A DNA stretch of 64,000 bases. Source: Halorarius halobius (GTDB lineage Archaea; Halobacteriota; Halobacteria; Halobacteriales; Haloarculaceae). Positions 2,783 to 35,550 of the stretch are shown one piece after another (position 1 is the stretch's first letter; every line of letters begins with the position of its first letter). A program made the translations under genes and the position numbers. The stretch spans positions 3,555,227-3,619,226 of the forward strand of contig NZ_CP101161.1 of NCBI RefSeq assembly GCF_024298865.1. Direction: 5' to 3'. The notes beneath the pieces were generated by a model, which saw only the letters and a program-made list of their open reading frames with translations, was not told the DNA's origin and did no database searches.

Positions 2783-4183
2783 ATGTCACCTATAGATACA
2801 TCTCCAGACAAGATAGCTGTATCGCCGTCACGACTCCTAACGGATGGAGGAATCGACGAGAACGTTCTATCACCAGATGCCTCGCAGCCATCCCTCCATC
2901 CCGAAACGGAGAGCGTGAGTTCGGGCACCCCGCAACCGGAGGTTGCGTCAGAAGCCCCTCCTGAGCCAGCAGAGGAATCCGACGGTGCCACAGGCACCAA
3001 TAATCGGGATGACGAGGAAAGCGCCGGAGGGGCCAAACCAGATTCCGACACTCATCGACTCATCTCACTCGAATCTCTCGACCCTAATCGCGAACTTGCT
3101 CAGCGAGTTCGTCGAGAGGCTTCCGTGCTGGTTGACACCTATGACGTAGAGGATGATGGGGGCCTTGACCTCGAATATCCGGTCTACCCTGTTGGAAAAA
3201 ACTACGGGTTGCACATCATCCCGGCGGATGACAATCCACTCTTCGCGCTGGTCGACACTGTTGCGGAGCAGATTGTTGTCTCGGAGTACAAGTCATTTGA
3301 TAAGGTCCGGTCAGGAGCCCAACTCAACCAGTTTGTCCCCAGATGGGCACAAATACTGACTGCTGACGAGACAGAAAGGGCTAGACGTGCGATTGAGTCC
3401 GCCTTTTCTGATGCAGTCAAAGACTTCGATGAGGGCAGAACAGAGAATTTCATCGCACCACCTGCGGCTCGGTTCCTCAAGCGGCAGACCGACTCTGTTC
3501 GCTTGATTGTCCCCACAGGCATCGAGACCGAGGATGCTGAGTACGAGGTGAGGTTCAAGCCCGACCCTCGACGAGAAATCGGTGAGTTCGGGTCTGTACG
3601 TTTCAGTGTGGCTTTCGCAAATGACCCGTCAGCGAGAGTAATCGCCGATGCATACTCTAACCGGCTTTCAGGTGTGATTCGGGGATTCGAAGCAGACTGG
3701 GCCGCTGCGTGGCTGTTCGACTATTGGGATGAGATGGCTCAGGAAGAGACCGTTCAGAATGAGCAAGAACAGGCACTCATTGAGATGTTCTGCACCCAGA
3801 TGAGCAACCTGAAAATTGGCTCTCTAACAGAACACGTGGTCACCGAGTGGTGGCAACCGAACAACACGCGGGGTATCTACGTTGAGCCCGACGATGGTTC
3901 TCCGTTTGTAGTCGTTGGGGGCCAGTACATCAAGAATTTCGTTGACCAGCACCGTCACGAGGTGCGAGGGTCTATCTCTGAGCTTCTGTATCGTGATGGT
4001 GTTCTCGTCGAACGTCCGGGAAACAGAACGTCGGCGAACAATCTCCTGTGTGAGAAGGGACTCAAAGACAAGCCCTCTGTGTGGATGGTTCGAGCTTCCC
4101 GTCTTGATTTCGACCCTGAAGCACTCTCTGACGATGAAGACGGGTCTAGCGACGGTGGCTTGTCCCCGAACGTAGCTCCCTGA
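2783..4183 (+). CDS. unknown 466-aa partner of the SF1 helicase
   Basis: Residues 1-90 are acidic, Ser/Pro-rich and probably disordered. The centre is an unrecognised globular domain. The C-terminus (about residues 375-445) contains GGQYIKNFVDQHRHEV...GSISELLYRDGVLV...SVWMVRASRL, which reads like a winged helix of the sort found at the ends of plasmid or virus primases and helicases. The stop codon is two bases before the ATG of the helicase gene at 4186, so the two are almost certainly translated together. This may be the replication- or defence-specific subunit that brings the helicase to DNA. No nuclease motif was seen. Confidence 0.6.
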   Translation: MSPIDTSPDKIAVSPSRLLTDGGIDENVLSPDASQPSLHPETESVSSGTPQPEVASEAPPEPAEESDGATGTNNRDDEESAGGAKPDSDTHRLISLESLDPNRELAQRVRREASVLVDTYDVEDDGGLDLEYPVYPVGKNYGLHIIPADDNPLFALVDTVAEQIVVSEYKSFDKVRSGAQLNQFVPRWAQILTADETERARRAIESAFSDAVKDFDEGRTENFIAPPAARFLKRQTDSVRLIVPTGIETEDAEYEVRFKPDPRREIGEFGSVRFSVAFANDPSARVIADAYSNRLSGVIRGFEADWAAAWLFDYWDEMAQEETVQNEQEQALIEMFCTQMSNLKIGSLTEHVVTEWWQPNNTRGIYVEPDDGSPFVVVGGQYIKNFVDQHRHEVRGSISELLYRDGVLVERPGNRTSANNLLCEKGLKDKPSVWMVRASRLDFDPEALSDDEDGSSDGGLSPNVAP

Positions 4184-4185
4184 CC

Positions 4186-5937
4186 ATGACGAGAGTAACT
4201 CGAATAGTTGGGATGGCGGGCTCGGGAAAGTCGACGGAGTGTAATCAACGACTTTTGGAGCTGCTCAACGACGACGAGGTCGAGCCAAGTGATATCCTCA
4301 TCACTGCGTTCAATAGGGCGAATATCCACGATATCATCGCACGCTGGGAGGACCCTGACTTGGTGGAAGCGGTCCACGGGCTGGAGTGGGTAGTGGACAA
4401 AGGCCAGTTCGATGATGAAGGAATCACTGTCCGTACGTTCAACAGTATCTGCTACAATCTAGTCCGGGAAGACAAGGAGTTTCACTTCGACCGGTTAGTG
4501 GTAATGGACCGGGAATCAGACGAAGAAATCTTCCAGCAGTTCTTCGATGAATGTGCTCCTCGATTCGAATACCGGTACGTTCCACCATCGCAGGCAGACG
4601 ATGCCGCTGACCGCGGAAGCCTTCCGGTAGCGAATCAGATTCTTCGTGCGTACAACTATCTACGTGCGCTTGGGTACGGTGACACACCGGAAGAGTACCG
4701 TGTCTATTCGCGAATGGAGACACAAGTTGCAGCCCCTGAAAGTAGGGTAATCGAGGTAATGCAACAGTGGGACGTGTGGAAGGAATCGAACGGTATCGTC
4801 CAGCACGACGACTGCGTTCGTGGTGCGATTGAATTGGAGAAAACTCCGTCTGGTAAGGTACTCGTCATCGACGAATTTCAAGACCTCTCGCCGCTCCAAT
4901 ACCGTCTGTACAAGCTCTGGCGGGACAGTCAGCAGTTTGACCACATCATTATCGCCGGTGACGAGGCACAGGCTATCTACGGATTCAGAGGAACGAGAGG
5001 GAGATATCTACGTGAGACTTACTGTGACGAATCGATAGAGTTGACTAAGAGCTGGCGCTGCGCCCCGAAAATCGTTGAGAAAGCCCAAGAAGTCATTGCT
5101 GGCTACGGCTATTTCGACGAAACGCTATCCTCGCATGGTGACGATTCCGATGCCATCGAGGAGAAGGTGGAAGTAGCAGGAAAAACTGCTGAAGACCTCC
5201 GTCCAGTGGTTGAAGAAGTTCTGACGGACCTCGGGCACGACAGTTCAGTAATGATTCTGGGCCGTACAAATCTTGACGTACAGCGCGTCGCGAAAGCTTT
5301 GAACGAGCTCGGATATCCGAATCAACCCATCGTACCAGCTGACGGTGAACGGAAACGAGGCCTCTGGTACTGGGAAGCGCCTGCTCCCGAAGTTCTCCAC
5401 ACGCTTCGTCGCTGGCGTGAAGGAGAGCAATTGTATCCGCCGTACGTCGAAGTCCTACTCTCGATTGCGGATGTCGACCACGCTTGGGTTGACCACGCGG
5501 TTGCGGGGAAGCTCACTAAGTATTCGAAAGCAGATGAGGGCTATCACGACTATCCGGTGCTGCTGGATAGGATAATGTATTCTCCTGATGTGATGGACGA
5601 GGTCTTCGACTTCCCGGAGTCTACCGAATCTGTTCTCAATTGCCTCCGCCTCGATGATGCTCGGCGGGAGGTCCTTCGACGGGCGCTCGATAGCGAGCAT
5701 GATATTCGCCCAGACCAAATCAGAGTGGGGACCATCCACTCCGCAAAGGGCCAAGAGAGCTCACGAGTTCTGTTGCTGGCTGGCTATGCGTATCGGCAGG
5801 CGGAACGGTATCGATATGAACCGGGTGTTGAGGAAGAGGAGCGACGGCTATACCACGTTGCGGTAACCCGGGCGGCTGACCAGTTGTATATCGTGACTGG
5901 CTGGAACGGGAGTGAACCGTGCCCGATATTCCTCTAA
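4186..5937 (+). CDS. UvrD/Rep-type superfamily 1 DNA helicase
   Basis: 583 aa. Seen: Walker A GMAGSGKST at residues 9-17; Walker B VLVIDEFQDLS (DE at 229-230); motif III GDEAQAIYGFRG at 258-269; the late motifs TIHSAKGQESS and RLYHVAVTRAADQLY near the C-terminus. This is a complete set of UvrD-like ATP-dependent 3'-5' translocase motifs in a protein shorter than chromosomal UvrD (about 700 aa). Family members unwind DNA in repair, plasmid replication and several defence systems such as Gabija, but the partner gene upstream is not an OLD nuclease, so Gabija is not supported. It forms a two-gene operon with 2783-4183. Confidence 0.9.
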   Translation: MTRVTRIVGMAGSGKSTECNQRLLELLNDDEVEPSDILITAFNRANIHDIIARWEDPDLVEAVHGLEWVVDKGQFDDEGITVRTFNSICYNLVREDKEFHFDRLVVMDRESDEEIFQQFFDECAPRFEYRYVPPSQADDAADRGSLPVANQILRAYNYLRALGYGDTPEEYRVYSRMETQVAAPESRVIEVMQQWDVWKESNGIVQHDDCVRGAIELEKTPSGKVLVIDEFQDLSPLQYRLYKLWRDSQQFDHIIIAGDEAQAIYGFRGTRGRYLRETYCDESIELTKSWRCAPKIVEKAQEVIAGYGYFDETLSSHGDDSDAIEEKVEVAGKTAEDLRPVVEEVLTDLGHDSSVMILGRTNLDVQRVAKALNELGYPNQPIVPADGERKRGLWYWEAPAPEVLHTLRRWREGEQLYPPYVEVLLSIADVDHAWVDHAVAGKLTKYSKADEGYHDYPVLLDRIMYSPDVMDEVFDFPESTESVLNCLRLDDARREVLRRALDSEHDIRPDQIRVGTIHSAKGQESSRVLLLAGYAYRQAERYRYEPGVEEEERRLYHVAVTRAADQLYIVTGWNGSEPCPIFL

Positions 5938-9182: not shown

Positions 9183-10340
9183 ATGGACAGGGACGCTGTT
9201 AGGAAGTATGTCGAACAATCTGACGCCGTTCTCGACGCTGCTCCGCAGATGGACGAAGCGAACACAAAGGCCGCCATTCTGCGTGATTTCTTGAGCCTTC
9301 TCGACTGGCAGATTCCGCAAAATACCCAGCTCGAATACTCCGTCGAGGCGTTCGGACAGACATATAAGGTGGACTATGCTCTGATTCTCGATGGAACACC
9401 GGTCGCATTTCTCGAAGCCAAGGGCGCGGACACAGCCCTAACTGCCGACCACGATGAACAACTCTCGTCCTATATGATGAACAAGAACGTCAACTACGGG
9501 ATTCTGACGAACGGGAAGCAGTATCGCTTCTTTCAGCGCCGAGTTGACGCTTCGAACGTGAATGTTCAGCAGGTCGGTAACGTAGACCTCGAAGACCTGC
9601 CCAACCGTCTTGCCGTTCTGAAAGCATACGAGAAGGACGCTATCGAGTCGGGCGAATCGGGGAAGATACTCGGTCGCATTAATGAACTCCGTGAAGCCCG
9701 CCGAACCCTCAAAACGGACAAGGACGACTTAGCAGTCGAACTCTCGAACACGCTGGCTGACGAAGTTTCTGACTCTATCTCGTCGCTCGCGGAGACGCAG
9801 GCGAAGGAAATGATTGACCGGCTCGTTGAGGATATTGATTCTGAAATCGACGCTGACGGCGGAGGTGCTGACGAACCGGTTGGTGGCGGCAGTGGCGGCA
9901 TTGAGCCAACAGGAAATCATATCGTCGGGACAATCCGACGGACTGAGATTGACGGCAACGACGACGCGAAAGTCGCGGTGTTCCCCACGAAGGAGTCAGG
10001 TCTACCGTTTCTCAAGGAGAACAACGCGTGGGGATTCGTTCGGGTTGGAAGCGAGTTCGAGTATGTTGCGATGTACGTGACTGGCGACGTGCGTCAGGTC
10101 AAATATTTCGCTACGGTCAGGGACGTAGTTCCACCCGAAGAGGCGAATTTATCTCGTCCAATCGAAGAGTACGCTGACGGCGCGAAAATCGCAGAGGACA
10201 AGATGGTAATTCGCTTCGAGCCGGAGAGTCTGTACGAGTTGGAAAACCCGGTTCCATATGAGTCAAAGTACCCCCAAGGACTTCGATATACTACGCTCGG
10301 AGCGATTCGGTCAGCAGAGACGACCGACGATATGCTCTGA
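9183..10340 (+). CDS. HsdR-N-type PD-(D/E)XK endonuclease with EVE/PUA-like C-terminus
   Basis: 385 aa. Residues 1-120 form the nuclease fold of type I restriction HsdR N-termini: Asp64 in YKVDYALI and Glu78-x-Lys80 in AFLEAKG, with Glu51 upstream. A helical region follows (about 150-225). Residues 240-385 contain NAWGFVRVGSEFEYVAMYV and PYESKYPQGLRYTTL, which look to me like a PUA/EVE-type domain that could read modified DNA. No methylase or helicase gene is adjacent, so a stand-alone, possibly modification-dependent, restriction enzyme is inferred. The first 226 codons and about 54 bp upstream are nearly identical to 27424-28512, and then the sequences diverge. A TATA-like TTTGATAAG lies about 30 bp upstream, fitting a leaderless transcript. 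Confidence 0.75.
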   Translation: MDRDAVRKYVEQSDAVLDAAPQMDEANTKAAILRDFLSLLDWQIPQNTQLEYSVEAFGQTYKVDYALILDGTPVAFLEAKGADTALTADHDEQLSSYMMNKNVNYGILTNGKQYRFFQRRVDASNVNVQQVGNVDLEDLPNRLAVLKAYEKDAIESGESGKILGRINELREARRTLKTDKDDLAVELSNTLADEVSDSISSLAETQAKEMIDRLVEDIDSEIDADGGGADEPVGGGSGGIEPTGNHIVGTIRRTEIDGNDDAKVAVFPTKESGLPFLKENNAWGFVRVGSEFEYVAMYVTGDVRQVKYFATVRDVVPPEEANLSRPIEEYADGAKIAEDKMVIRFEPESLYELENPVPYESKYPQGLRYTTLGAIRSAETTDDML

Positions 10341-12285: not shown

Positions 12286-13443
12286 ATGAGTGCTGCTGAC
12301 GACACCTCTACGAAGGTTTCTGACCTGTCTGCGGAAGAGATGATGCAGATGTTTACGGACAAGATGTCGGAGCAACTGAGTCCGTCACTCTCGTCGAAGA
12401 CTCCGAAGGAGGCCGTGGACAAATACTTCCAGACTCGAAATCTGGAGGCGGGAACCGAATACACTCACCGTTCTGCCTTGTACAATCACTTCGTTGTCTG
12501 GTGTGATGAAGTGAGGGGAATCGATGACATGAGTGAATTAACGGGTAACGACCTTGCTGATTACCGCGTCTGGAGGCGGGAAGAAGCGCCGACGAGGGTA
12601 AAGAAACTACGACCAAAGTCGGAAGAGACGCAGCAAAAGATTCTTCGAGTGTTCATCAAGCGGTGTGAGCAGTGGGAATTCGTCACGCCCGGTTTACACG
12701 AGTACGTCCTCATACCGAAGGTCAGCCGGAGTGACGAGGTTCGAGATGAAATTCTCGATTCACACACTGCGAAGCAAATACTCGATTGGCTTGCTCGGTA
12801 CGAGTATGCGAGTCTTCACCACGTCATCTGGCTTCTGTACGCAGAGAGTGGAGCACGATTGGGCGGAATTCATTCGCTTGACGTGTCGGACTACGTGTCT
12901 CAAAGGGATGGTGGGTATCTGAAACTGAGACACCGTCCAGAGGAAGGAACCACATTGAAGAATGGAGAGGAAGGTGAGCGAGATGTCAGTATTACGCTGG
13001 ACGTTTGTGACGTTCTGGATGACTACCTTGAGGATAAGCGGGTGGACCAGACCGACGAGTACGGCCGAGCTCCGTTGCTGACTACCTCGCATGGGCGGGT
13101 TTCGAAGTCAACAATTCGTACGTACTTCTACGCGTGGACGCGTCCTTGCGTTATCGGCATGGGGTGTCCCTACGGTCGCGACCCGCGTGAGTGCGATGCC
13201 GCAAAGAGAAATAACTGGGCATTCAGGTGTCCAGACAGTCTGAGCACTCATCCAGTTCGGAAAGGGTACATCACGGCCGAGCTTAAGGGAGGGATTCCGA
13301 AGATGGTCCTCTCAGAGAGGTGTGACGTGTCCGAGAAGATTCTCGACCGGCACTACGACTTCCGGACCGAGCAAGAAAAGATGGAGGCCCGGATGAGGTT
13401 GATGAAGATGGCGCACCAACGAAACCCGAGATATGGCGCATAG
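12286..13443 (+). CDS. tyrosine recombinase, 385 aa, left gene of cassette A
   Basis: The N-terminal half is a SAM-like core-binding domain (residues about 50-150). The catalytic domain shows Arg in ESGARLGGIHSLDV, Lys in TTLKNGEEGER, His-x-x-Arg in LSTHPVRKGYIT, and the nucleophile Tyr in ILDRHYDFRT. The usual box III His position is Cys/Asp (SERCDVS). Between box I and HxxR there is a cysteine insertion, CPYGRDPRECDAAK...RCPDS, shared with the 339-aa recombinase; this may bind zinc. The protein is about 90% identical by eye to the product of 32425-33582. The active-site set looks intact, so the enzyme could be functional. Confidence 0.9.
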   Translation: MSAADDTSTKVSDLSAEEMMQMFTDKMSEQLSPSLSSKTPKEAVDKYFQTRNLEAGTEYTHRSALYNHFVVWCDEVRGIDDMSELTGNDLADYRVWRREEAPTRVKKLRPKSEETQQKILRVFIKRCEQWEFVTPGLHEYVLIPKVSRSDEVRDEILDSHTAKQILDWLARYEYASLHHVIWLLYAESGARLGGIHSLDVSDYVSQRDGGYLKLRHRPEEGTTLKNGEEGERDVSITLDVCDVLDDYLEDKRVDQTDEYGRAPLLTTSHGRVSKSTIRTYFYAWTRPCVIGMGCPYGRDPRECDAAKRNNWAFRCPDSLSTHPVRKGYITAELKGGIPKMVLSERCDVSEKILDRHYDFRTEQEKMEARMRLMKMAHQRNPRYGA

Positions 13444-15464: not shown

Positions 15465-16484
15465 TTAGAGGTTGTTGAGGTACTTCCGCCGCTGCTCCAT
15501 CTTCGTCTTCTCATCACGCCGGTCGTAGTGTTTGTCGAGAGTATCCGGGTTAACGTTCGCACGAGCCGAGACTACCTCAACCGGAACATCCGAACTGAGA
15601 TGATGCGTTATCGCACCTCGGCGAACAGCGTGCGATGACACGCTCTCAGGACACTTCGATGCGTGGACGTACTCCGCGGCTTCGCATTCTTCCGGGTCCC
15701 GATTGAGAGGACAGGAAAGCCCGATTCGACACGGTCGCGACCAGTTGTACACAATCGTCGTCGGCGTAGTAGTATGCATTCGACCATGTGAAGTTGCGAT
15801 GAGTGGCTCTCGTCCGTATTCATCAACAACGTCCGGTCGTTGGTTCTCTATCCAGTCATCAAGCAGACCGCAGACTTCGGAAGAGAGCGCGACGAACCGT
15901 TCTCCCTTCATTTTGTTCTTGATGGGCGTGTCCGTCTCTGGTCGATGGCGAATTTCCAGCGATTTTTCTTCTGGGTGGTAGTCAGACAAATCGAGTGTTC
16001 GGACTGCTCCGCGACGGAGCATGGTGTGCCACTGGAGTGTAAGCACCATGTGAGCTCGCGAGGCGTACTCGAATTTTCCCAGATGAGTCAGGATGGCTTC
16101 AGCCTGCTCGGGCGTGAGCCGGTCGTCTCGGACGTTTTCGTCGGCATCAAGGTCGGGCGAGAGAACTTTCTCGCTGAGGTCGGGTTTGACCGCGTCGACG
16201 GTCTCTAGGAATCGGATGAATACGCGAAGCGTATCCATCTGCGTTTTTTCGGTGACGGGTTTGATTTCTCCGTCATGGCTTCGTCGCCATAGGCGGAACT
16301 CGTGGAGCAGGCGGCCGGTGAGCTCGTTGAGATTCGTGAGCTCCTTTTCGTGTTCACACCAGCGGACGAAGTGTCCGAGGCGAGATTTGTGGGAGCGAAG
16401 GGTTGATTTGGCCACTTCGCGTCGTCGATGGTCGATATACAGTGCGAGTGCTTCGTCGGGCGCGATTGGTTCGAGGTCGTCCAT
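15465..16484 (-). CDS. tyrosine recombinase, 339 aa, right gene of cassette A
   Basis: Core-binding domain about residues 10-110, then the catalytic domain: Arg in HTMLRRGAVRTLDL, Lys in TPIKNKMKGER, HAVRRGAIT (His-x-x-Arg), and Tyr in DTLDKHYDRR. A Cys-rich insertion, CPLNRDPEECEAAE...KCPES, matches that of the 385-aa recombinase, so the two are distant members of one haloarchaeal family. The box III His position is not His. Nearly identical to 34531-35550. Transcribed inward from the right end, convergent with the 385-aa gene. Confidence 0.9.
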   Translation of the reverse strand: MDDLEPIAPDEALALYIDHRRREVAKSTLRSHKSRLGHFVRWCEHEKELTNLNELTGRLLHEFRLWRRSHDGEIKPVTEKTQMDTLRVFIRFLETVDAVKPDLSEKVLSPDLDADENVRDDRLTPEQAEAILTHLGKFEYASRAHMVLTLQWHTMLRRGAVRTLDLSDYHPEEKSLEIRHRPETDTPIKNKMKGERFVALSSEVCGLLDDWIENQRPDVVDEYGREPLIATSHGRMHTTTPTTIVYNWSRPCRIGLSCPLNRDPEECEAAEYVHASKCPESVSSHAVRRGAITHHLSSDVPVEVVSARANVNPDTLDKHYDRRDEKTKMEQRRKYLNNL

Positions 16485-17434: not shown

Positions 17435-18844
17435 TCATCTCAGTTCAGCGTTGGATGTCGAATCGTATAGAGTCCGGGCTATCGGGTAGAGGTCTCCCAG
17501 TATCTCACGTTCCGCCTCAATAAGGTCAAAGTGACGAGCAATTCCAACGATTGCACGATACGGAGGAGAACCACTGAACCCGTATGTATCACGTGCGGTC
17601 AAGCAGAGACGGGCGAATTCTTCGTCTGTTAGTTTGTCCAGGGCCCGAGGCCCCGTGCAGTCTCCACATTCCAAGAACCCCTCAATAGTCGCAACAAGAT
17701 GGAGAGCATTACCCCCGGCTCCTTCGTGGCCACTAGAGTAACAGCGCCAGAGTTTGTCGTCACTCGATACGGCGAAGTTTGTTCCATTTGACCCCCCATG
17801 AGCGGGATGGTCGCTTCTGAGCTCTCGCCCCATCGACGTGAGTTTTGTGCCGGCGGCTCGTGCCACACGGGTAACTGAATGGCTGTAGTAAGGTGATTGC
17901 TCGCTAGTGGTAGAACGCGGTTCCGACTCACGTTGGCTTGCTGCAGCCTTATCTTCGAGAACCTGGGCGGCTTGACGCTCGTCAGGCTGGAATTCGTCGA
18001 TGATGTCGTCAATTGCCGCCTGAGCTTCGTGTACATCGTCTGGAGTACCTAGAAGATGTCGTCCAGTGACAGCGGCCCACCGCCCCTGTTGGTACATCTC
18101 GATACTAGGAAGTTTGTCTGACTCCGGGACAAACACGTCATCAGCGATAGGCGAATCAAACGATGTGAACCGTTCTGGGAGCCGTCCATATACGAAGAGG
18201 TGTAGGCCAGTCCCACTCTGAGAGATTTCCGTGAAACTCGCGAGGTTATCGACTAGCTCACGAGCACGAGGATGTAACTCCCCAGTGGTTGGAATTCGGA
18301 CAGCATCTAAATCAACGAATACAATCACGTCGCCGGTTGGTGGGACATCTGAAGGGAGCAGAAACCCCAGCTCAACCTCATCTCTATCGATGTTGTCGAG
18401 ATTCGTAGGGAGATGTTCAATCACCTCGTGTTGGGCCCACTTTGCGGCCTGTTCGAACGATGTTTCGGGCCGTTCCTCAGCAGCTAGGTCGCCGCTCCAG
18501 CGACATGGGTACATATCCGACTTGACCCACGGTGCCCTCGGAATCTTATCCCTAGTCCACAAGAGCCACTGTGGACGGTCACGGAGACCGTTTGGATAAA
18601 GGAGATTCTCTCGCGGCTTCGAAGCGGCTTCGGCAGTAGCAGACTCTGCTATCAGCGAGAACTCGTCGCCTTGTTTTATAATCCATCCCTGGTCAATCGC
18701 TCTCGATAGCTCAGCCTTAGCGTCAGCCACAGACATCCCGAAGTCCTCAATGAGGGCATCCAATACCTGCCTTCGCTGAAGATAAGACGACTTAGCCTCG
18801 GCCGAGTGTTCGAAGAGGTCGTACCAATCTGGCCTCGTAGTCAT
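17435..18844 (-). CDS. PrimPol-type bifunctional DNA primase/polymerase
   Basis: 469 aa. N-terminal residues 1-70 look like a winged helix. The archaeo-eukaryotic primase catalytic motifs follow: VFVDLD (Asp178 and Asp180), SGTGLHLFV (His215) and the RWAAVTGRH stretch near 255-264. The C-terminal third has WRCYSSGHEG and a Cys-rich ECGDCTGPRA, perhaps a metal-binding primase C-terminal module. Such enzymes start and copy DNA for plasmids and viruses. Its ATG overlaps the helicase stop by four bases, so it is the last gene of a three-gene replication operon. Confidence 0.8.
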   Translation of the reverse strand: MTTRPDWYDLFEHSAEAKSSYLQRRQVLDALIEDFGMSVADAKAELSRAIDQGWIIKQGDEFSLIAESATAEAASKPRENLLYPNGLRDRPQWLLWTRDKIPRAPWVKSDMYPCRWSGDLAAEERPETSFEQAAKWAQHEVIEHLPTNLDNIDRDEVELGFLLPSDVPPTGDVIVFVDLDAVRIPTTGELHPRARELVDNLASFTEISQSGTGLHLFVYGRLPERFTSFDSPIADDVFVPESDKLPSIEMYQQGRWAAVTGRHLLGTPDDVHEAQAAIDDIIDEFQPDERQAAQVLEDKAAASQRESEPRSTTSEQSPYYSHSVTRVARAAGTKLTSMGRELRSDHPAHGGSNGTNFAVSSDDKLWRCYSSGHEGAGGNALHLVATIEGFLECGDCTGPRALDKLTDEEFARLCLTARDTYGFSGSPPYRAIVGIARHFDLIEAEREILGDLYPIARTLYDSTSNAELR

Positions 18845-20817
18845 TCGTCACCTTTCCGGGTAGGCTGGATGCCGTATGGAATGTAACTACTTGTCCAACT
18901 GAAGCCGTCGCGGAGAACCACGACTCGTTCCTTCGCGCGGGTACATCCGACATACCAGATGCGGTCCTCGGAAGCGCGCGCCGCTGGAGAGTACAGCTCG
19001 TTACGAATGCGACGCGTAATCCCATCATACAGTATCACGGTATCGGCTTCAAATCCCTTGGAGCCATGCAGTGACATCACGCGGGGGAATCCAGCGAAAT
19101 TCAGCGCGAATCGACCCTGGTTCTCGAAGGTGGGAATGAGCCCACGGTTACGAGCAAGCGCCGCTTGGAGAGTATTTCGTTCACGAGTATTCTGAATCAC
19201 GCAGTGTTTGACCGATACTGGACCGTTGCTGAACAGTTCTGTCCAGCGTATTGGGTCAGTTATCGGGGCGAAGAACTCCTGAAGCGTGACGGGTAGCTCG
19301 TCGTTCACCCATGCCCGACCGAGAGCAGCTGTCTCATCTCTATCCCAGGCTAGTAACGAGGATGGAGTGGCTTTGAGCAGAGCCTGAGCTTCCTCGGCAC
19401 AGAGCTCAGTCGGAGGTTCGTCAAGGAGCGCCTCCTCACTCAGGATGAGCGTCCATCTCTTCCAGCCACGTTGTTCACACGTGAGGCCGCGGAAACGCTG
19501 GAGGCCATTATAAAGATGTGCGCGGTCGAGGTTCTTGTTCCATGCCCCGGTTCCTTGTTGCCCTGCGTAGATGATACCGGTCTTCCGCAGGGCCAATCCA
19601 ATAAGCCAAATCTGTAGCTGTGTCCGAGCGAGGTACAGAATGGTATTTTCGTCATGACTCGCTGCGTGGGCACCACCATCACCCGACAATAACGGTCCCT
19701 CTTGACTGAACTCGTAAAGAAGGTCCGGCGGGCTGAATCGTTTGTCGACAGAAGTTGTATGAACACCTGTACGACGGTTGAATTCCATAGGTGGCGCTTG
19801 CCGTACCAGAATTTCTCCAGGCTTATCGCTCGCGATGTCCAGTGCTGGCGGTGTGTGGGTTCGGCCCAAGATAGTCGTCGCTGCGTCCCAGATGTTTTTG
19901 GGTACACGCCAGGTAGTCGGAAGCTGAAGTTCAGGGAGGGGAAGTCGTTCGAAGTATTTGGGGTCTGCTCCCTCATGCCGGTTCATCACTTGATGTGGGT
20001 CACCCGCTACAATCGCTATCTCTGCGCCAGCGAGCCACTTCCGGGCAACGCTGTCCATCAGCGGGGTGAAGTCGTGATACTCGTCGACAATCACGACCTG
20101 CTGCGGCGGTAGCTCCTCTGAGTCGAGAGCTTCCGTAAGCATTTCATGGAAATCGAAGAGCTTGTTTTCACTCTTGTAATCCTCCCAAGATGCTGCAACC
20201 TCCGAGAGCGGAGGATGAGTATTCCAGCACGAACGGAGCCGGTCGTACGAGGGGGCTTCATAGTGCTTTGAGAACGGCCGCTGGTTATGAATTAGCCAGT
20301 GGTATACCTCGAACAGTCGCTTCCCTGGGCTTTCATCCCACGCCTCTGTGTCGGGTGTGTCGTAATGTCGTCCATACTTCTCAGAGAGAAAATCTACGTA
20401 GTCTTGTCGCTCAGCAATCCCCCAAGCATGACCCATCCACTCCCCCTTCCCAGCAACGCGCATCGCAACACTGTGAAGAGTTCCAATATGTCGTGTTCGT
20501 CCTTTTGTAGGCTGGATAAAATCATCCTCATTGAGAACTGCTGCTTCTCGAAGTTTGCTGAAGACATCCTCGGCAAGGTCTCGTCGAAATGTTATCCAAG
20601 TGATATCGCGAAGATTGATATCGTATTCTGACTCCAGTAGCGATAGCCGTCGAACGAGTTCTGTCGACTTGCCCGTTCCGGGAGGACCATTCAGTTTGAT
20701 ACTTTCATCCGGAGCCACTGATTCAGTCTTAGGAGACACTTCGAGCGAGTCCAACCACTCTTGCTGCTGGCGCTGCCGAGCAGCTTTTTGCTCCATGTAA
20801 TCAGTTGCCTCACTCAT
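18841..20817 (-). CDS. UvrD-like SF1 helicase of the replication operon
   Basis: 658 aa from ATG 20817, which overlaps the previous gene's stop (ATGAGTGA); the frame is open to 20853. Seen: Walker A GPPGTGKST; motif Ia-like ITWITFRRDLAEDV; Walker B VVIVDEYHDF; motif III GDPHQVMNRHEG; motif V SLHGSKGFEADTVILYDG; motif VI WYVGCTRAKERVVV. The complete motif set suggests an active 3'-5' DNA translocase. It is not closely similar to the helicase at 4186. With PrimPol downstream it probably serves element replication. Confidence 0.85.
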   Translation of the reverse strand: MSEATDYMEQKAARQRQQQEWLDSLEVSPKTESVAPDESIKLNGPPGTGKSTELVRRLSLLESEYDINLRDITWITFRRDLAEDVFSKLREAAVLNEDDFIQPTKGRTRHIGTLHSVAMRVAGKGEWMGHAWGIAERQDYVDFLSEKYGRHYDTPDTEAWDESPGKRLFEVYHWLIHNQRPFSKHYEAPSYDRLRSCWNTHPPLSEVAASWEDYKSENKLFDFHEMLTEALDSEELPPQQVVIVDEYHDFTPLMDSVARKWLAGAEIAIVAGDPHQVMNRHEGADPKYFERLPLPELQLPTTWRVPKNIWDAATTILGRTHTPPALDIASDKPGEILVRQAPPMEFNRRTGVHTTSVDKRFSPPDLLYEFSQEGPLLSGDGGAHAASHDENTILYLARTQLQIWLIGLALRKTGIIYAGQQGTGAWNKNLDRAHLYNGLQRFRGLTCEQRGWKRWTLILSEEALLDEPPTELCAEEAQALLKATPSSLLAWDRDETAALGRAWVNDELPVTLQEFFAPITDPIRWTELFSNGPVSVKHCVIQNTRERNTLQAALARNRGLIPTFENQGRFALNFAGFPRVMSLHGSKGFEADTVILYDGITRRIRNELYSPAARASEDRIWYVGCTRAKERVVVLRDGFSWTSSYIPYGIQPTRKGDE

Positions 20818-21793
20818 CGGTCTCACCAAAATCCCACTCATCGTCCTCTTCACTCATCCCTATCTGTTCATCATCGGTCTCGATTTCAGCTGGCTCTGCA
20901 AACGACCGCTTCAGACACCACCAGCGAACTGGTGTCCCATCGCCCAGTTGCGTCGTCTCGACTTTCCGCGCTAGGTAGTCTTTGGCGCTCATTTCCGCGT
21001 ATAGGGCTCTCATTGAGACCGACTCATGAGGTGCAATCGCCCGCTGTACGACTCGTGACTCAACGCGAACTGTATCGTTTGTCTCCTCATCTCGAAGGCA
21101 AAGCAGTTCCATCTTGTACGCTGTCTCTTGTGACGTTACAGCCGTCATAGATGAGACAGTACGGCGGAGGTCTTCGATAGCTTGAGTCCGGGGCCCCTCT
21201 GAGATATCAACGATACTCGGGTCTCGCTGTTTCCATCGCATGATGAACCGCTCCACCCAATCACTCCAAGGTGTACAGCCATCACTGGGTTCTGCAACGT
21301 GCTCGGCTGTTGCGTCGAAATAGTTGCCTCGGAAGTGGTGCGCTGACTTGTGGGACCCCTCTGTTTCAATTGTAACTGGTCCATCATCGGTCTCAAAGGT
21401 CCACTGATACGCCGCGTTCTCATTGGTATCCGTCGACTGAATGATGCGCAGCGTCAAGAGTCGCTCACGGAGCAGCCTATCGAGCGGATAAATTTCGACG
21501 GTAGCTGGGTCTTCCCCAGTGACCTCTGCGTTTGACACTGCCTTCGTCCGCTCGTCGTAGATTTCCCGAAGTGCAGTCTTCGTTACCGAGTGAGAATCTA
21601 AATTATGCAGTGAGCCGATGAGATTATCGATGGTCCCATCACTGATTTCACCGTCAGCGCGGGCCTTAGCGAGGAGGGCTAGGAATTGCTCAATGACGGT
21701 GGCTTTCTCAACTTCTGAGGCGTCCTCTACTTGTCCCCGGATTTGTGTCCAGGCTTGCGATACACCTTCCTTTGTTGGGTTGAAATCGTTCAT
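20810..21793 (-). CDS. unknown first gene of the helicase-PrimPol operon
   Basis: 327 aa. No family recognised. The N-terminal half is helical and acidic. The region around 230-310 (VVQRAIAPHESVSMRALYAE...RWWCLKRSF) resembles a winged helix and is followed by a very acidic tail ending EDDEWDFGETDE. In layout it parallels the 466-aa protein before the other helicase (C-terminal winged-helix-like region, acidic tail, overlapping helicase gene), so it may be an origin-binding or loader protein. This is inference from position. Confidence 0.55.
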   Translation of the reverse strand: MNDFNPTKEGVSQAWTQIRGQVEDASEVEKATVIEQFLALLAKARADGEISDGTIDNLIGSLHNLDSHSVTKTALREIYDERTKAVSNAEVTGEDPATVEIYPLDRLLRERLLTLRIIQSTDTNENAAYQWTFETDDGPVTIETEGSHKSAHHFRGNYFDATAEHVAEPSDGCTPWSDWVERFIMRWKQRDPSIVDISEGPRTQAIEDLRRTVSSMTAVTSQETAYKMELLCLRDEETNDTVRVESRVVQRAIAPHESVSMRALYAEMSAKDYLARKVETTQLGDGTPVRWWCLKRSFAEPAEIETDDEQIGMSEEDDEWDFGETDE

Positions 21794-22801: not shown

Positions 22802-22891
22802 CCCAATTTTATGTGTATGATTATATGAAGCACTCTCATCAAGCGCACGTGCCGGGGATGCTCCTTTGCAATCTCTCCACGTCTTGTTGGT

Positions 22892-23053
22892 ATGCCTCGG
22901 TATTGCCCAGAAGAACAGGACAAGAAACCACAACTCCGTGAAGAACCATCTGGCTACTGGGTCTGTCTCGGCTGTGGACAAATCTTCGGTCGGACGTACA
23001 CTCGTGCGATTGTACAGTGGAAGGACCACCTCATAGAGGACAACCGTCCGTGA
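22892..23053 (+). CDS. 53-aa zinc-finger protein, paralogue of the gene at 1769
   Basis: Starts MPRYCPEEQ and shares PSGYWVCLGCGQIFG, YTRAI and a WKDHL helix with the gene at 1769-1930, with the same length. Conserved Cys residues (YCP, CLGCG) and a His would bind one zinc. The leader CTCCTTTGCA also matches. Two copies 21 kb apart suggest duplication within the element or two related elements. Confidence 0.6.
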   Translation: MPRYCPEEQDKKPQLREEPSGYWVCLGCGQIFGRTYTRAIVQWKDHLIEDNRP

Positions 23054-23274
23054 AACCCGGCCGGCACTGCTCACTCTAACATACGGTTCGGGTGGTAAAG
23101 CTTCTTGATTACTCGGGGAAGTGCGTTGTAGGGCACGGCGGCGTCACTCTCTCACTATGTCAGCAGTTGTCCTTGAGCTCGGAGTACAGGACTCTCAGCG
23201 AGGAGATATGGGGGCTACATTCAGAGCGGGTGGGAGTCCATACTTATCATACCTAAATGAGAATCAGGTATGAT

Positions 23275-23859: not shown

Positions 23860-24511
23860 GAATTTGTGCCGCTGGTTTTCGAAAGCGAGGTATTCGATGC
23901 TGAGCCACATGACGAAGTGCTCGCAATGCGTAGTGAATATCTCCTCTGTAGTGAGCAAGTGAGGGGGTCAGGAACGATTGGGTAAACGACTGTATGGCCC
24001 TCTTTACGGTATTCTGGGACAACTAAATGACTAGGAAAGTATATATTCGGGCGAAGCCTACCTTGTTGTGCCGTTAGGCAGTTCCAGAAGTAGTTACAGA
24101 AACACCCGGGTTGGACCGCCAACCCACATGGGATTGAAAATGCGGAATCCCTTTCTGGAACCTGTTACAGAAAACCCGCTGGGCTGAGAAATTCGGCCCA
24201 ACTGGGATTGAAACGATAATGGTCAATCGATGACCGACCTAATTTCGCCTATCGGTCTTCCTCTCCCCACCACACACGTACCACGTTGAGACGGCTTTCA
24301 AATCTGCATACAGCGGACTGAAAGTAGCAGACTCTGCTACTGCTTCCTGAGGCTCCTCGAATTCCTTTCTCGGTATCTCTTTGAAATCGAACAACGCGGT
24401 TTCGAGTGAGAAACCTATTTGACGAGATATTCAAGCTGGCTACTCTCGTGCTTCCCCGGTGGCAGGGCAGTCAGCGCGGTGTCTAGGTCCGGCGTTATTG
24501 TCTTCATGTCC
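23860..24511. other. 650-bp stretch without protein gene; holds structured repeats
   Basis: No reading frame with good support. It contains the two hairpin repeats at 24093-24213 and, at about 24324, the palindrome AGTAGCAGA-C-TCTGCTACT; most of this sequence recurs inside the PrimPol gene near 18636. The stretch may encode a non-coding RNA. Confidence 0.4.
24093..24213 (+). repeat. two CRISPR-repeat-like hairpin units, 23 nt apart
   Basis: Unit 1 (24093-24140) and unit 2 (24164-24213) both start GTTACAGAAA and end TGGGATTGAAA, the typical 5' and 3' ends of haloarchaeal type I-B CRISPR repeats. Between these ends each has an extra stem: GGGTTGG-ACCG-CCAACCC in unit 1, and TGGGCTGA-GAAAT-TCGGCCCA in unit 2. 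The stems differ in sequence but keep pairing, and an outer CCC/GGG pair is kept too. No cas genes are present. This could be a degenerate mini-array, a repeat-mimic RNA, or transposon ends. Confidence 0.45.
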
Positions 24512-27423: not shown

Positions 27424-28512
27424 ATGAATAGGGACGCTGTGAGGGAGTACATCGAACAATCTGACGCCGTTCTCGAATCTTCTCCGCAAATGGACGAGGC
27501 TAACACGAAGGCCGCTGTTCTCCGTGATTTTTTAGACCTTCTCGACTGGCAAATCCCCGAGAACACCCAACTCGAATACTCCGTTGAAGCGTTCGGGCAG
27601 ACCTACAAGGTAGACTATGCCCTGATTCTCGATGGAACACCGGTCGCGTTTCTTGAAGCCAAAGGCGCGGACACAGCCCTGACTGCCGACCACGACGAAC
27701 AACTCTCGTCCTATATGATGAACAAGAACGTCAACTACGGGGTTCTAACGAACGGGAAGCAGTACCGCTTCTTTCAGCGCCGTGTAGACGCCTCGAACGT
27801 GGACGTTCAGAAGGTGGGCAACGTATCCCTTGAAGACCTACCTAACCGCCTCGCTGTTCTCAAGGCCTACGAGAAAGACGCTATCGAGTCCGGTGAGTCC
27901 GGCAAAATCCTTGGTCGAATCAATGAACTACGGGAAGCCCGGCGAACCCTCGAAGCCGATAAGGACGACTTGGCAGTCGAACTCTCGAACGTATTGGCGG
28001 ACGAGGTTTCTGATTCTATCTCGTCGCTCGCGGAAACACAGGCGAAGGAAATGATTGACCGGCTCGTCGCAGATATTGAGTCGGAGATTGACGCCGACGG
28101 GAAGAAGTCGAAGCGAGAAATCGCTGGTTCGCTCGGTGAAACGCCGGAAAAGGTAGAGGCTTCAGATGTAGACGGAGAGTATGTTATCGAGATACAGGGG
28201 GACGAAAGTACCCTCGTTGTTCTTGATGGTGACAACCAGAGCGACGTAATGGCTAACGCTGTAGACTATCTCATTCAGAATCACGACCTGATTTCGCGTG
28301 TCGAACCACTACCGTATGTCCCCGGAAATAAAAACGCCCTAATCAATAACCAGCCAGTTCATCCCGACGGTGAACGCGATATGAGAACATATCGTGAGTT
28401 GACAAACGGCTACTATCTGTTCACGAGTTTCAATAAGCGTGACAAGAAGCGCCATATACAACGACTGGCAGACAAATGCGACCTCGCTGTTGAATCAAGA
28501 GGCGAGTGGTAG
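27424..28512 (+). CDS. second HsdR-N-type endonuclease with a different C-terminal domain
   Basis: 362 aa. Residues 1-226 nearly copy the protein at 9183, with the same catalytic Asp64, Glu78 and Lys80 (YKVDYALI...FLEAKG). From about residue 227 the sequence is unrelated: SKREIAGSLGETPEKVEASD, then a domain with NAVDYLIQNHDLISRVEPLP and ELTNGYYLFTSFNKRDKKRH. The 54 bp before the start, including TTTGATAAGCCGCCGCTGTG, also match, so the duplication unit includes promoter plus nuclease domain. A modular nuclease whose targeting domain has been exchanged is inferred. The next frame (28506) overlaps the stop. Confidence 0.75.
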   Translation: MNRDAVREYIEQSDAVLESSPQMDEANTKAAVLRDFLDLLDWQIPENTQLEYSVEAFGQTYKVDYALILDGTPVAFLEAKGADTALTADHDEQLSSYMMNKNVNYGVLTNGKQYRFFQRRVDASNVDVQKVGNVSLEDLPNRLAVLKAYEKDAIESGESGKILGRINELREARRTLEADKDDLAVELSNVLADEVSDSISSLAETQAKEMIDRLVADIESEIDADGKKSKREIAGSLGETPEKVEASDVDGEYVIEIQGDESTLVVLDGDNQSDVMANAVDYLIQNHDLISRVEPLPYVPGNKNALINNQPVHPDGERDMRTYRELTNGYYLFTSFNKRDKKRHIQRLADKCDLAVESRGEW

Positions 28513-32424: not shown

Positions 32425-33582
32425 ATGAGTGCTGCTGACGACACCTCTCCGAAGGTCTCCGACCTGTCTGCGGAAGAGATGATGCAGATGTTCTCGGACA
32501 CGATGTCGGACCAACTGAATCCTTCACTCACATCGAAGACTCCGCAGGAGGCTGTGGACAAATACTTCCAGACTCGAAATTTGAAGGCCGGTACTGAAGC
32601 CACCCACCGTTCTGCCTTGTACAATCACTTTGTCGCCTGGTGTGAGGAGGTGAGAGGAATCGATGACATAAGTGAATTGACGGGCAACGACCTCGCAGAT
32701 TACCGCGTCTGGAGGCGAGAGAAAGCGCCGACGAAGGTGAAGAAACTACGACCTAAGTCCGAAGAAACGCAGCAGAAGATTCTTCGAGTGTTCATCAAGC
32801 GGTGTGAGCAGTGGGAATTCGTCAATCCCGGTCTACACGAGTACGTCCTCATACCGAAGGTCAGCCGAAGTGACGAGGTTCGAGATGAGATTCTCGATTC
32901 AGACACTGCGAAGCAAATACTTGATTGGCTTGCTCGGTACGAGTATGCGAGTCTTCACCACGTTATCTGGCTTCTCTACGCAGAAAGTGGAGCACGATTG
33001 GGCGGAATTCATTCGCTTGACGTGTCGGACTACGTGTCTCAGAGGGACGGTGGGTATCTGAAACTGAGACACCGACCGAAGACGGGAACGACACTGAAGA
33101 ATGGTGAGGAGGGTGAACGCGATGTCAGTATTACTCTGGGCATTTGTAACGTTCTGGATGACTACCTTGATGATAAGCGGGTGGACCAGACAGATGAGCA
33201 CGGTCGAAGCCCGCTGCTTACGACCACGCATGGGCGAGTTTCGAAGTCGACCATTCGCACGTACTTCTACGCGTGGACGCGTCCCTGCGCTATCGGTATG
33301 GAGTGTCCCTACGGTAGAGACCCGCGTGAGTGCGATGCCGCAAAGAGAAATAACTGGGCATTCAAGTGCCCAGACAGTCTGAGCACCCATCCGGTTCGGA
33401 AAGGGTATATCACGGCCAGTCTCAAGGATGCGATTCCAAAGATGGTACTCTCAGAGAGGTGCGACGTGTCCGAGAAGATTCTCGACCGGCACTACGACTT
33501 CCGGACCAAGCAAGAAAAGATGGAGGCCCGGATGAGGTTGATAAAGATGGCACACCAACAAAACCAGAAATATGGCGCATAG
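32425..33582 (+). CDS. tyrosine recombinase, 385 aa, left gene of cassette B
   Basis: Same length and domain plan as 12286-13443. Catalytic residues are kept: Arg in ESGARLGGIHSL, Lys in TTLKNGEEGER, LSTHPVRKGYIT, ILDRHYDFRT. The Cys insertion (CPYGRDPRECDAAK...KCPDS) is also kept. Differences are scattered and mostly conservative, with many silent changes in the DNA, which suggests selection for function after the copies separated. Leader motifs are shared with A. Confidence 0.9.
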   Translation: MSAADDTSPKVSDLSAEEMMQMFSDTMSDQLNPSLTSKTPQEAVDKYFQTRNLKAGTEATHRSALYNHFVAWCEEVRGIDDISELTGNDLADYRVWRREKAPTKVKKLRPKSEETQQKILRVFIKRCEQWEFVNPGLHEYVLIPKVSRSDEVRDEILDSDTAKQILDWLARYEYASLHHVIWLLYAESGARLGGIHSLDVSDYVSQRDGGYLKLRHRPKTGTTLKNGEEGERDVSITLGICNVLDDYLDDKRVDQTDEHGRSPLLTTTHGRVSKSTIRTYFYAWTRPCAIGMECPYGRDPRECDAAKRNNWAFKCPDSLSTHPVRKGYITASLKDAIPKMVLSERCDVSEKILDRHYDFRTKQEKMEARMRLIKMAHQQNQKYGA

Positions 33583-34530: not shown

Positions 34531-35550
34531 TTATATATTGTTGAGATATTTTCTCCGCTGTTCCATCTTCGTTTTCTCATCCCGCCGGTCGTAGTGTTTG
34601 TCGAGAGTATCTGGGTTGACGTTCGCACGGGCTGAGACGACCTCAACCGGAACGTCTGAGCTGAGATGATGCGTTATCGCACCTCGGCGAACAGCGTGCG
34701 ATGACACGCTCTCAGGACACTTCGACGCGTGGACGTACTCCGCAGCTTCGCATTCTTCCGGGTCTCGATTGAGGGGACAGGAAAGCCCAATTCTACACGG
34801 TCGCGACCAGTTGTACACAATCGTCGTCGGCGTAGTAGTATGCATTCGACCGTGTGAAGTTGCGATGAGTGGCTCTCGTCCGAATTCATCAACAACATCT
34901 GGCCGCTGATTGTCAATCCAGTCATCAAGCAGGCTGCAGACTTCGGAAGAGAGCGCGACGAATCGCTCTCCCTTCATTTTGTTTTTGATTGGCGTGTCCG
35001 TCTGTGGTCGATGGCGAATTTCCAGCGACTGTTCTTCTGGGTGGTAGTCAGACAAATCGAGTGTGCGGACTGCTCCACGGCGGAGCATCGTGTGCCACTG
35101 GAGCGTAAGCACCACGTGAGCTCGCGAGGCGTACTCGAATTTTCCCAGATGAGTCAGGATGGCTTCGGCTTGTTCCGGCGTAAGCCGGTCATCCCGGACG
35201 TTTTCGTCGGCATCAAGCTCTGGTGAGAGAACCTTCTCGCTGAGGTCGGGCTTGACTGCGTCGACGGTCTCTAGGAACCGGATGAACACGCGGAGCGTAT
35301 CCATCTGGGTTTTTTCGGTGACGGGTTTGATTTCCCCATCGTGGCTTCGTCGCCATAGCCGGAACTCGTGGAGCAGGCGACCGGTGAGTTCGTTGAGATT
35401 CGTGAGCTCCTTTTCTTGTTCACACCAACGGACGAAGTGTCCAAGGCGGGATTTGTGGGAGCGAAGCGTCGATTGAGCCACTTCACGTTCACGGTGTTTG
35501 ATATACAGTGCGAGTGCTTCGTCGGGCGCGATTGGTTCGAGGTCGTCCAT
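34531..35550 (-). CDS. tyrosine recombinase, 339 aa, right gene of cassette B
   Basis: Almost identical to 15465-16484, with Arg (MLRRGAVRTL), Lys (PIKNKMKGER), HAVRRGAIT and DTLDKHYDRR conserved, as well as the CPLNRDPEECEAAE Cys insertion. The gene reads inward from the right end and converges on the 385-aa gene across the cargo. High identity to the A copy, higher than for the 385-aa pair, points to recent spread or gene conversion. Confidence 0.9.
   Translation of the reverse strand: MDDLEPIAPDEALALYIKHREREVAQSTLRSHKSRLGHFVRWCEQEKELTNLNELTGRLLHEFRLWRRSHDGEIKPVTEKTQMDTLRVFIRFLETVDAVKPDLSEKVLSPELDADENVRDDRLTPEQAEAILTHLGKFEYASRAHVVLTLQWHTMLRRGAVRTLDLSDYHPEEQSLEIRHRPQTDTPIKNKMKGERFVALSSEVCSLLDDWIDNQRPDVVDEFGREPLIATSHGRMHTTTPTTIVYNWSRPCRIGLSCPLNRDPEECEAAEYVHASKCPESVSSHAVRRGAITHHLSSDVPVEVVSARANVNPDTLDKHYDRRDEKTKMEQRRKYLNNI

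Follow-up and report, generated by a model that had tools for sequence, protein, structure and literature searches.

Tandem CRISPR-repeat-like units with inserted hairpins in an integrated haloarchaeal element: a candidate RNA decoy

Repeat-derived RNAs of mobile elements have so far been described as plain or degenerate repeats. Racrs are solitary repeat units that resemble CRISPR repeats outside an array and lie on mobile elements with a likely promoter and without cas genes; under the SRUFinder rule, a unit is solitary if no further repeat, whether full or partial, lies within 100 bp (PMC10651486). In haloarchaea, the creA RNA of CreTA consists of two degenerate repeats that flank a spacer-like segment and give 8-nt and 22-nt handles; the middles of the repeats have diverged and the ends that are read by Cas proteins are kept (PMC8501985, PMC9458426). 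Viruses and plasmids carry mini-CRISPR arrays, in which two repeats enclose one spacer-like segment (PMC11656645). As for the haloarchaeal type I-B repeat itself, Cas6 is reported to bind its first 12 nt, and its last 8 nt form the handle bound by Cas5; the spacing of two motifs, AACCC and GTGGG, serves adaptation, and no conserved hairpin is seen (PMC9458426).

Positions 1 to ~36,000 of the window (the whole stretch of 64,000 nt that was analysed) hold two related integrated elements, side by side. Their tyrosine recombinases (15465-16484 and 34531-35550) share 92% identity, and other blocks are 86%-89% identical between the elements, which also encode primase-like and UvrD-like helicase genes. 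The GC content of the elements is about 50%-55%, that of the chromosome to the right about 65%-72%. Each element has a 385-aa integrase-like protein (12286-13443 and 32425-33582) and an HSDR_N-like nuclease gene (9183-10340 and 27424-28512), and the UvrD/GajB-like helicases (4186-5937 and 18841-20853) each adjoin a primase-like or unidentified protein (2783-4183 and 17435-18844). A 217-bp repeat, 79% identical, occurs in both (1725-1941 and 22848-23064). At 457-1215 we also note a protein with a nucleotide-cyclase domain that matches models of PycC, the Pycsar cyclase (E 1.1e-21); its gene may serve in defence, here within an archaeal element.

In the second element, an intergenic region of 650 bp contains two repeat-like units, here U1 and U2, with the following features in and around them:

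24034-24047, + strand: putative archaeal promoter, as read from the sequence; BRE/TATA-like GGAAAGTATATATT, TATA box at 24040
24070-24092, + strand: putative RNA 5′ end; small hairpin GCC-GTTA-GGC, then AGTTCCAGAA, able to pair with the linker (TTCTGGAACC)
24093-24139, + strand: U1, 47 nt; 5′ part GTTACAGAAACACCC, inserted hairpin, 3′ part TGGGATTGAAA
24108-24125, + strand: inserted stem-loop of U1, GGGTTGG-ACCG-CCAACCC, 7 bp
24133-24140, + strand: presumed Cas5-binding 5′ handle of U1, ATTGAAAA, 8 nt, by analogy to PMC9458426
24140-24163, + strand: linker or short spacer, 24 nt, ATGCGGAATCCCTTTCTGGAACCT, with no convincing target
24164-24213, + strand: U2, 50 nt; GTTACAGAAAACCCG, inserted hairpin, TGGGATTGAAA(C); contains the I-D core CAGAAAACCCG...GGGATTGAAAC
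24180-24200, + strand: inserted stem-loop of U2, TGGGCTGA-GAAAT-TCGGCCCA, 8 bp, one of them U-G
24214-24245, + strand: downstream tail with hairpin GGTCA-ATCGA-TGACC; possible RNA end, no clear terminator on the + strand

The two units have their start GTTACAGAAA and end TGGGATTGAAA in common, the terminal 10 and 11 nt being identical. The distance between them is 24 nt; the initial annotation placed the units correctly and gave the gap as 23 nt, a figure that is obtained when counting begins after the 8-nt handle ATTGAAAA, just 5′ of which the Cas6 cut would be expected by analogy. The pattern GTTACAGAAAN{20,45}TGGGATTGAAA has no match in 100 shuffles; for a looser, repeat-like pattern, shuffled sequence gives 0.013 matches per 36 kb. 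U1 and U2 are the only two matches to the former pattern in the host genome and in 392 genomes of its class.

Both inserts are predicted to fold far better than expected by chance: that of U1 reaches −12.3 kcal/mol, which 0.04% of its shuffles equal, and that of U2 −13.3 kcal/mol (0.18%). When the stems are compared, two of seven pairs have changed on both sides and one pair has become U-G, all 14 cells remaining paired, which bears out the initial observation that the stems differ in sequence yet keep pairing, a G-T pair included. As a test of covariation this is suggestive and not significant, with two sequences only and 128 of 500 shuffles equally good.

To relate the units to real CRISPR repeats, we built a covariance model (R2) from U1 and U2 and ran it over related haloarchaeal loci with arrays. 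Beyond U1 and U2 themselves, its matches fall inside CRISPR arrays, with 20.7 bits for I-D repeats and 19.1 bits for an I-B repeat, so that the likeness to CRISPR repeats first seen by eye is now backed by a model. These alignments run end to end, the 24-nt insert being shrunk to the natural 3-nt loop, and the insert is missing from every real repeat that we have seen. Since real repeats are matched with the insert deleted, the insert occupies the place that in ordinary haloarchaeal repeats belongs to a loop of 3-4 nt. Read in this way, the sequences of U1 and U2 are those of CRISPR repeats whose short CCC/GGG hairpin has had its loop swapped for a 21-24 nt segment predicted to form a stem-loop. 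That they derive from or mimic a CRISPR repeat is, in our judgment, highly probable.

Two kinds of repeat come into question as the model. In this family of haloarchaea, I-B repeats read GTT[A/T]CAGACGAACCCTTG[T/C]GGG[A/G]TTGAAGC; one on a plasmid, GTTACAGACGAACCCTTGTGGGATTGAAAC (locus L153), adjoins I-B cas6 and cas8b. Arrays of the second kind consist of repeats of 37 nt, for example GTCGCAGGAGTCAGAAAACCCGAACCGGGATTGAAAC. In one genome (G361), such arrays are flanked by Cas6d, Cas10d, Cas7d, Cas5d, Cas3d, and Cas1d, and we therefore assign them to type I-D. The Cas10d of this genome (L151, 1366-4304) is split into two adjacent frames of 832 and 147 aa, with the same sizes and order in a second genome (G269, L150). 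With the I-B repeat, the units share GTTACAGA, ACCC, and TGGGATTGAA in identical order, and the initial description of the units as I-B-like stands for their 5′ end, GTTACAGA. It is incomplete where the 3′ half is concerned: the handle ATTGAAAC and the CAGAAAACCCG core fit I-D better, U2 containing the entire conserved I-D core CAGAAAACCCG...GGGATTGAAAC together with the CCCG/(C or T)GGG stem, and the units' handle ends in AAA(A/C), whereas I-B handles commonly end in AAGC. The stem-loop segment distinguishes the units from both kinds, replacing a loop of 3-4 nt in I-B and of 3 nt (by a 24-nt segment) in I-D, and in the comparison with I-D the 5′ extension is unmatched. On sequence grounds, I-D appears at least as likely as I-B to be the system that is mimicked. 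Both ends reported to bind Cas proteins are retained, and the hairpin separates the two adaptation "anchors" (PMC9458426).

By its TATA box, its strong predicted structure, and the lack of a CRISPR leader, the locus looks like an RNA gene carried by the element. From haloarchaeal promoter spacing, transcription would be expected to start at about 24068-24073. The predicted fold of 24070-24245 has a free energy of −61.7 kcal/mol (z −4.2; none of 300 shuffles as good), resembles a three-way junction, and takes in both leader and linker. The linker can pair with the 5′ leader in a 10-bp run including G-U (286 of 20,000 shuffled linkers, or 1.4%, do as well) and also with the 3′ part of U1, and it appears to be a structural strand. 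A 39-codon GTG frame that starts at 24068, crosses U1, and ends in U2 has no sign of coding, and Rfam has no match anywhere in the window. Upstream of U1 there is no leader resembling that of plasmid mini-arrays (L155-L157 and L161). Three of these loci, on plasmids of Halobaculum, Halobacterium, and Natronorubrum, are themselves leader-bearing canonical I-B mini-arrays of one or two repeats (L156, 1501-1531; L157, 1501-1600; L161, 1501-1600), with no cas genes annotated within the 3 kb shown.

No cas genes lie beside the units. In the host genome (99.95% complete), we found no canonical CRISPR repeats, no Cas1, and no I-B Cas7, the last with a positive control in Haloferax volcanii, and the host thus offers no repeat against which the units could be compared, as the initial annotation had proposed; the absence of cas genes noted initially thus holds as far as Cas1 and I-B Cas7, the test for the Cas6 family having given no signal in its Haloferax control. 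A general search, without an Acr-specific library, recognised no anti-CRISPR gene near the units.

The initial annotation had proposed a covariance-model search for isolated copies; it found none in 392 haloarchaeal genomes, and neither model nor pattern revealed a second hairpin-extended locus there. The sole further model match, in G055 (E 0.41), proved to be an ordinary hairpin. Viral contigs match the tandem patterns, exact or loose, at chance level only, and the ten matches from a scan of genome contigs are scattered over non-haloarchaeal records, unrelated bacteria among them, at about the level of chance. Of the recurrent sub-threshold BLAST matches to 24220-24240, those examined closely belong to ordinary coding frames, either to their beginning or to their interior. 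For a neighbouring 83-aa protein, 11 other genomes encode relatives, with no repeats adjoining them, and we found no viral relatives of the primase-like and 327-aa proteins. Since this is a single locus with no relative in the genomes and viral contigs searched, selection on the stem is not demonstrable.

We tentatively favour the reading that the locus encodes a structured repeat-mimic RNA that would act as a Racr-like RNA anti-CRISPR in I-D or I-B hosts. The integrated element would encode a structured RNA of ~175 nt with two mimics of the CRISPR repeat, each keeping the Cas6-bound 5′ segment and the Cas5-bound 3′ 8-nt handle, with the short loop exchanged for a stable hairpin. When the element enters an I-D or I-B host, the RNA would occupy Cas6 and then Cascade; the hairpin may slow or misplace cleavage and spoil the spacer insertion site, leaving unproductive complexes. 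Transcription, Cas6 binding, and inhibition of interference are all inferred here from sequence. What speaks for the decoy is the anatomy of the units, their alignment with real repeats, a strong predicted fold, a TATA box with no CRISPR leader, the location on a mobile element, and a host without Cas1, I-B Cas7, or canonical repeats, together with a linker that pairs with the RNA's own 5′ part and not with any target found. Against it count the single locus without a relative, from which conservation cannot be demonstrated, the presence of two units instead of one, and a neighbourhood in which no anti-CRISPR gene was recognised. The likeness to Racrs lies in a repeat-like unit outside an array, on a mobile element, with a likely promoter and no cas genes; the differences are two units within 100 bp, the extra apical hairpin, a host without the tested cas genes, and an inhibition that is predicted. 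Because units 24 nt apart are not solitary and inhibition is only inferred, filing the locus as a Racr is not warranted. We hold it doubtful, though worth stating, that it represents a new class of RNA anti-CRISPR: tandem mimics whose apical hairpin, set between the 5′ segment for Cas6 binding and the segment with cleavage site and handle, would make a Cas6 substrate into an inhibitor of archaeal I-D and perhaps I-B systems.

The best rival to a decoy is that the RNA serves as a guide: Cas6 would make one crRNA-like RNA (handle ATTGAAAA, 23-nt guide, and 3′ repeat part) with which Cascade represses, rather than cuts, a gene of the host or of a competing element. This possibility was absent from the initial list of explanations, which correctly called the gap too short for a normal spacer; it opens because 20-24 nt is the length that represses without cutting, spacers of 20-24 bp in Haloarcula hispanica repressing transcription without interference (PMC10989794). 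Two diverged repeats around one short spacer are the layout of creA (PMC8501985), and divergence of repeats prevents loss of the spacer through recombination (PMC9458426). However, the ends of U1 and U2 are identical, their repeats are 17-20 nt longer than those of creA because of the hairpins, and CreTA repeats reportedly lack a conserved hairpin (PMC9458426). We recognised no creT-like gene or toxin candidate among the short frames and no adjoining cas operon, in a genome without Cas1 or I-B Cas7, and the window contains no seed match of the linker beyond chance of the kind that pairs creA with the creT promoter. Allowing three or fewer mismatches, the linker has six genome matches, itself included, versus five for a reversed-pattern control; no seed match in related loci exceeds 9 nt, and a lone viral 18-mer match is about as expected by chance, on a contig without haloarchaeal protein composition. 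Internal pairing of the linker can, moreover, hide the handle. We consider a guide unlikely. A decayed mini-array, taken up by the element, with insertions in its repeats, a truncated spacer, and no remaining function, would agree with the lack of a leader and with a host that has no Cas1, I-B Cas7, or canonical repeats, and the class has other genomes with degenerate-looking arrays (L080 and L085). Like the locus, canonical mini-arrays (L157 and L161) are element-borne pairs of repeats around one spacer-like segment; here the repeats are non-canonical, with no canonical repeats in their own genome to match, and the gap of 23-24 nt is shorter than a normal spacer. Decay would not be expected to leave identical terminal 10 and 11 nt and two separate near-perfect hairpins at the same place, and we regard it as improbable.

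The likeness to repeats could also be coincidental, the locus then serving the element as a structured signal, RNA or DNA, unconnected with CRISPR, such as a replication or copy-control RNA. A strong fold that includes leader and linker, a location between element genes, and occurrence in only one known element would all suit such a signal. Coincidence is nevertheless unlikely because GTTACAGA, ACCC, and TGGGATTGAA follow one another in the order and spacing of repeats; the rarity of the loose pattern in shuffled sequence and the confinement of the further R2 matches to CRISPR arrays also count against it, and we assign this explanation a low probability. Least probable by far is the option, raised initially, that the units are transposon ends, paired or palindromic, of the IS200/IS605 or TnpB type: hairpins that are short, have conserved flanks, and lie in a mobile region recall such ends, but the units are direct and not inverted, nothing lies in the 24 nt between them, there is no other copy in the genome, and the neighbouring ORFs scanned include no transposase or TnpB.

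If the decoy reading is true, RNA anti-CRISPRs would extend to archaeal I-D or I-B systems, and the presence of repeat-like DNA in an apparently CRISPR-less host would be explained by an element that travels to CRISPR-bearing hosts. Two repeats whose loops had given way to hairpins of different sequence would then offer a natural way of testing how a substrate is measured by archaeal Cas6.
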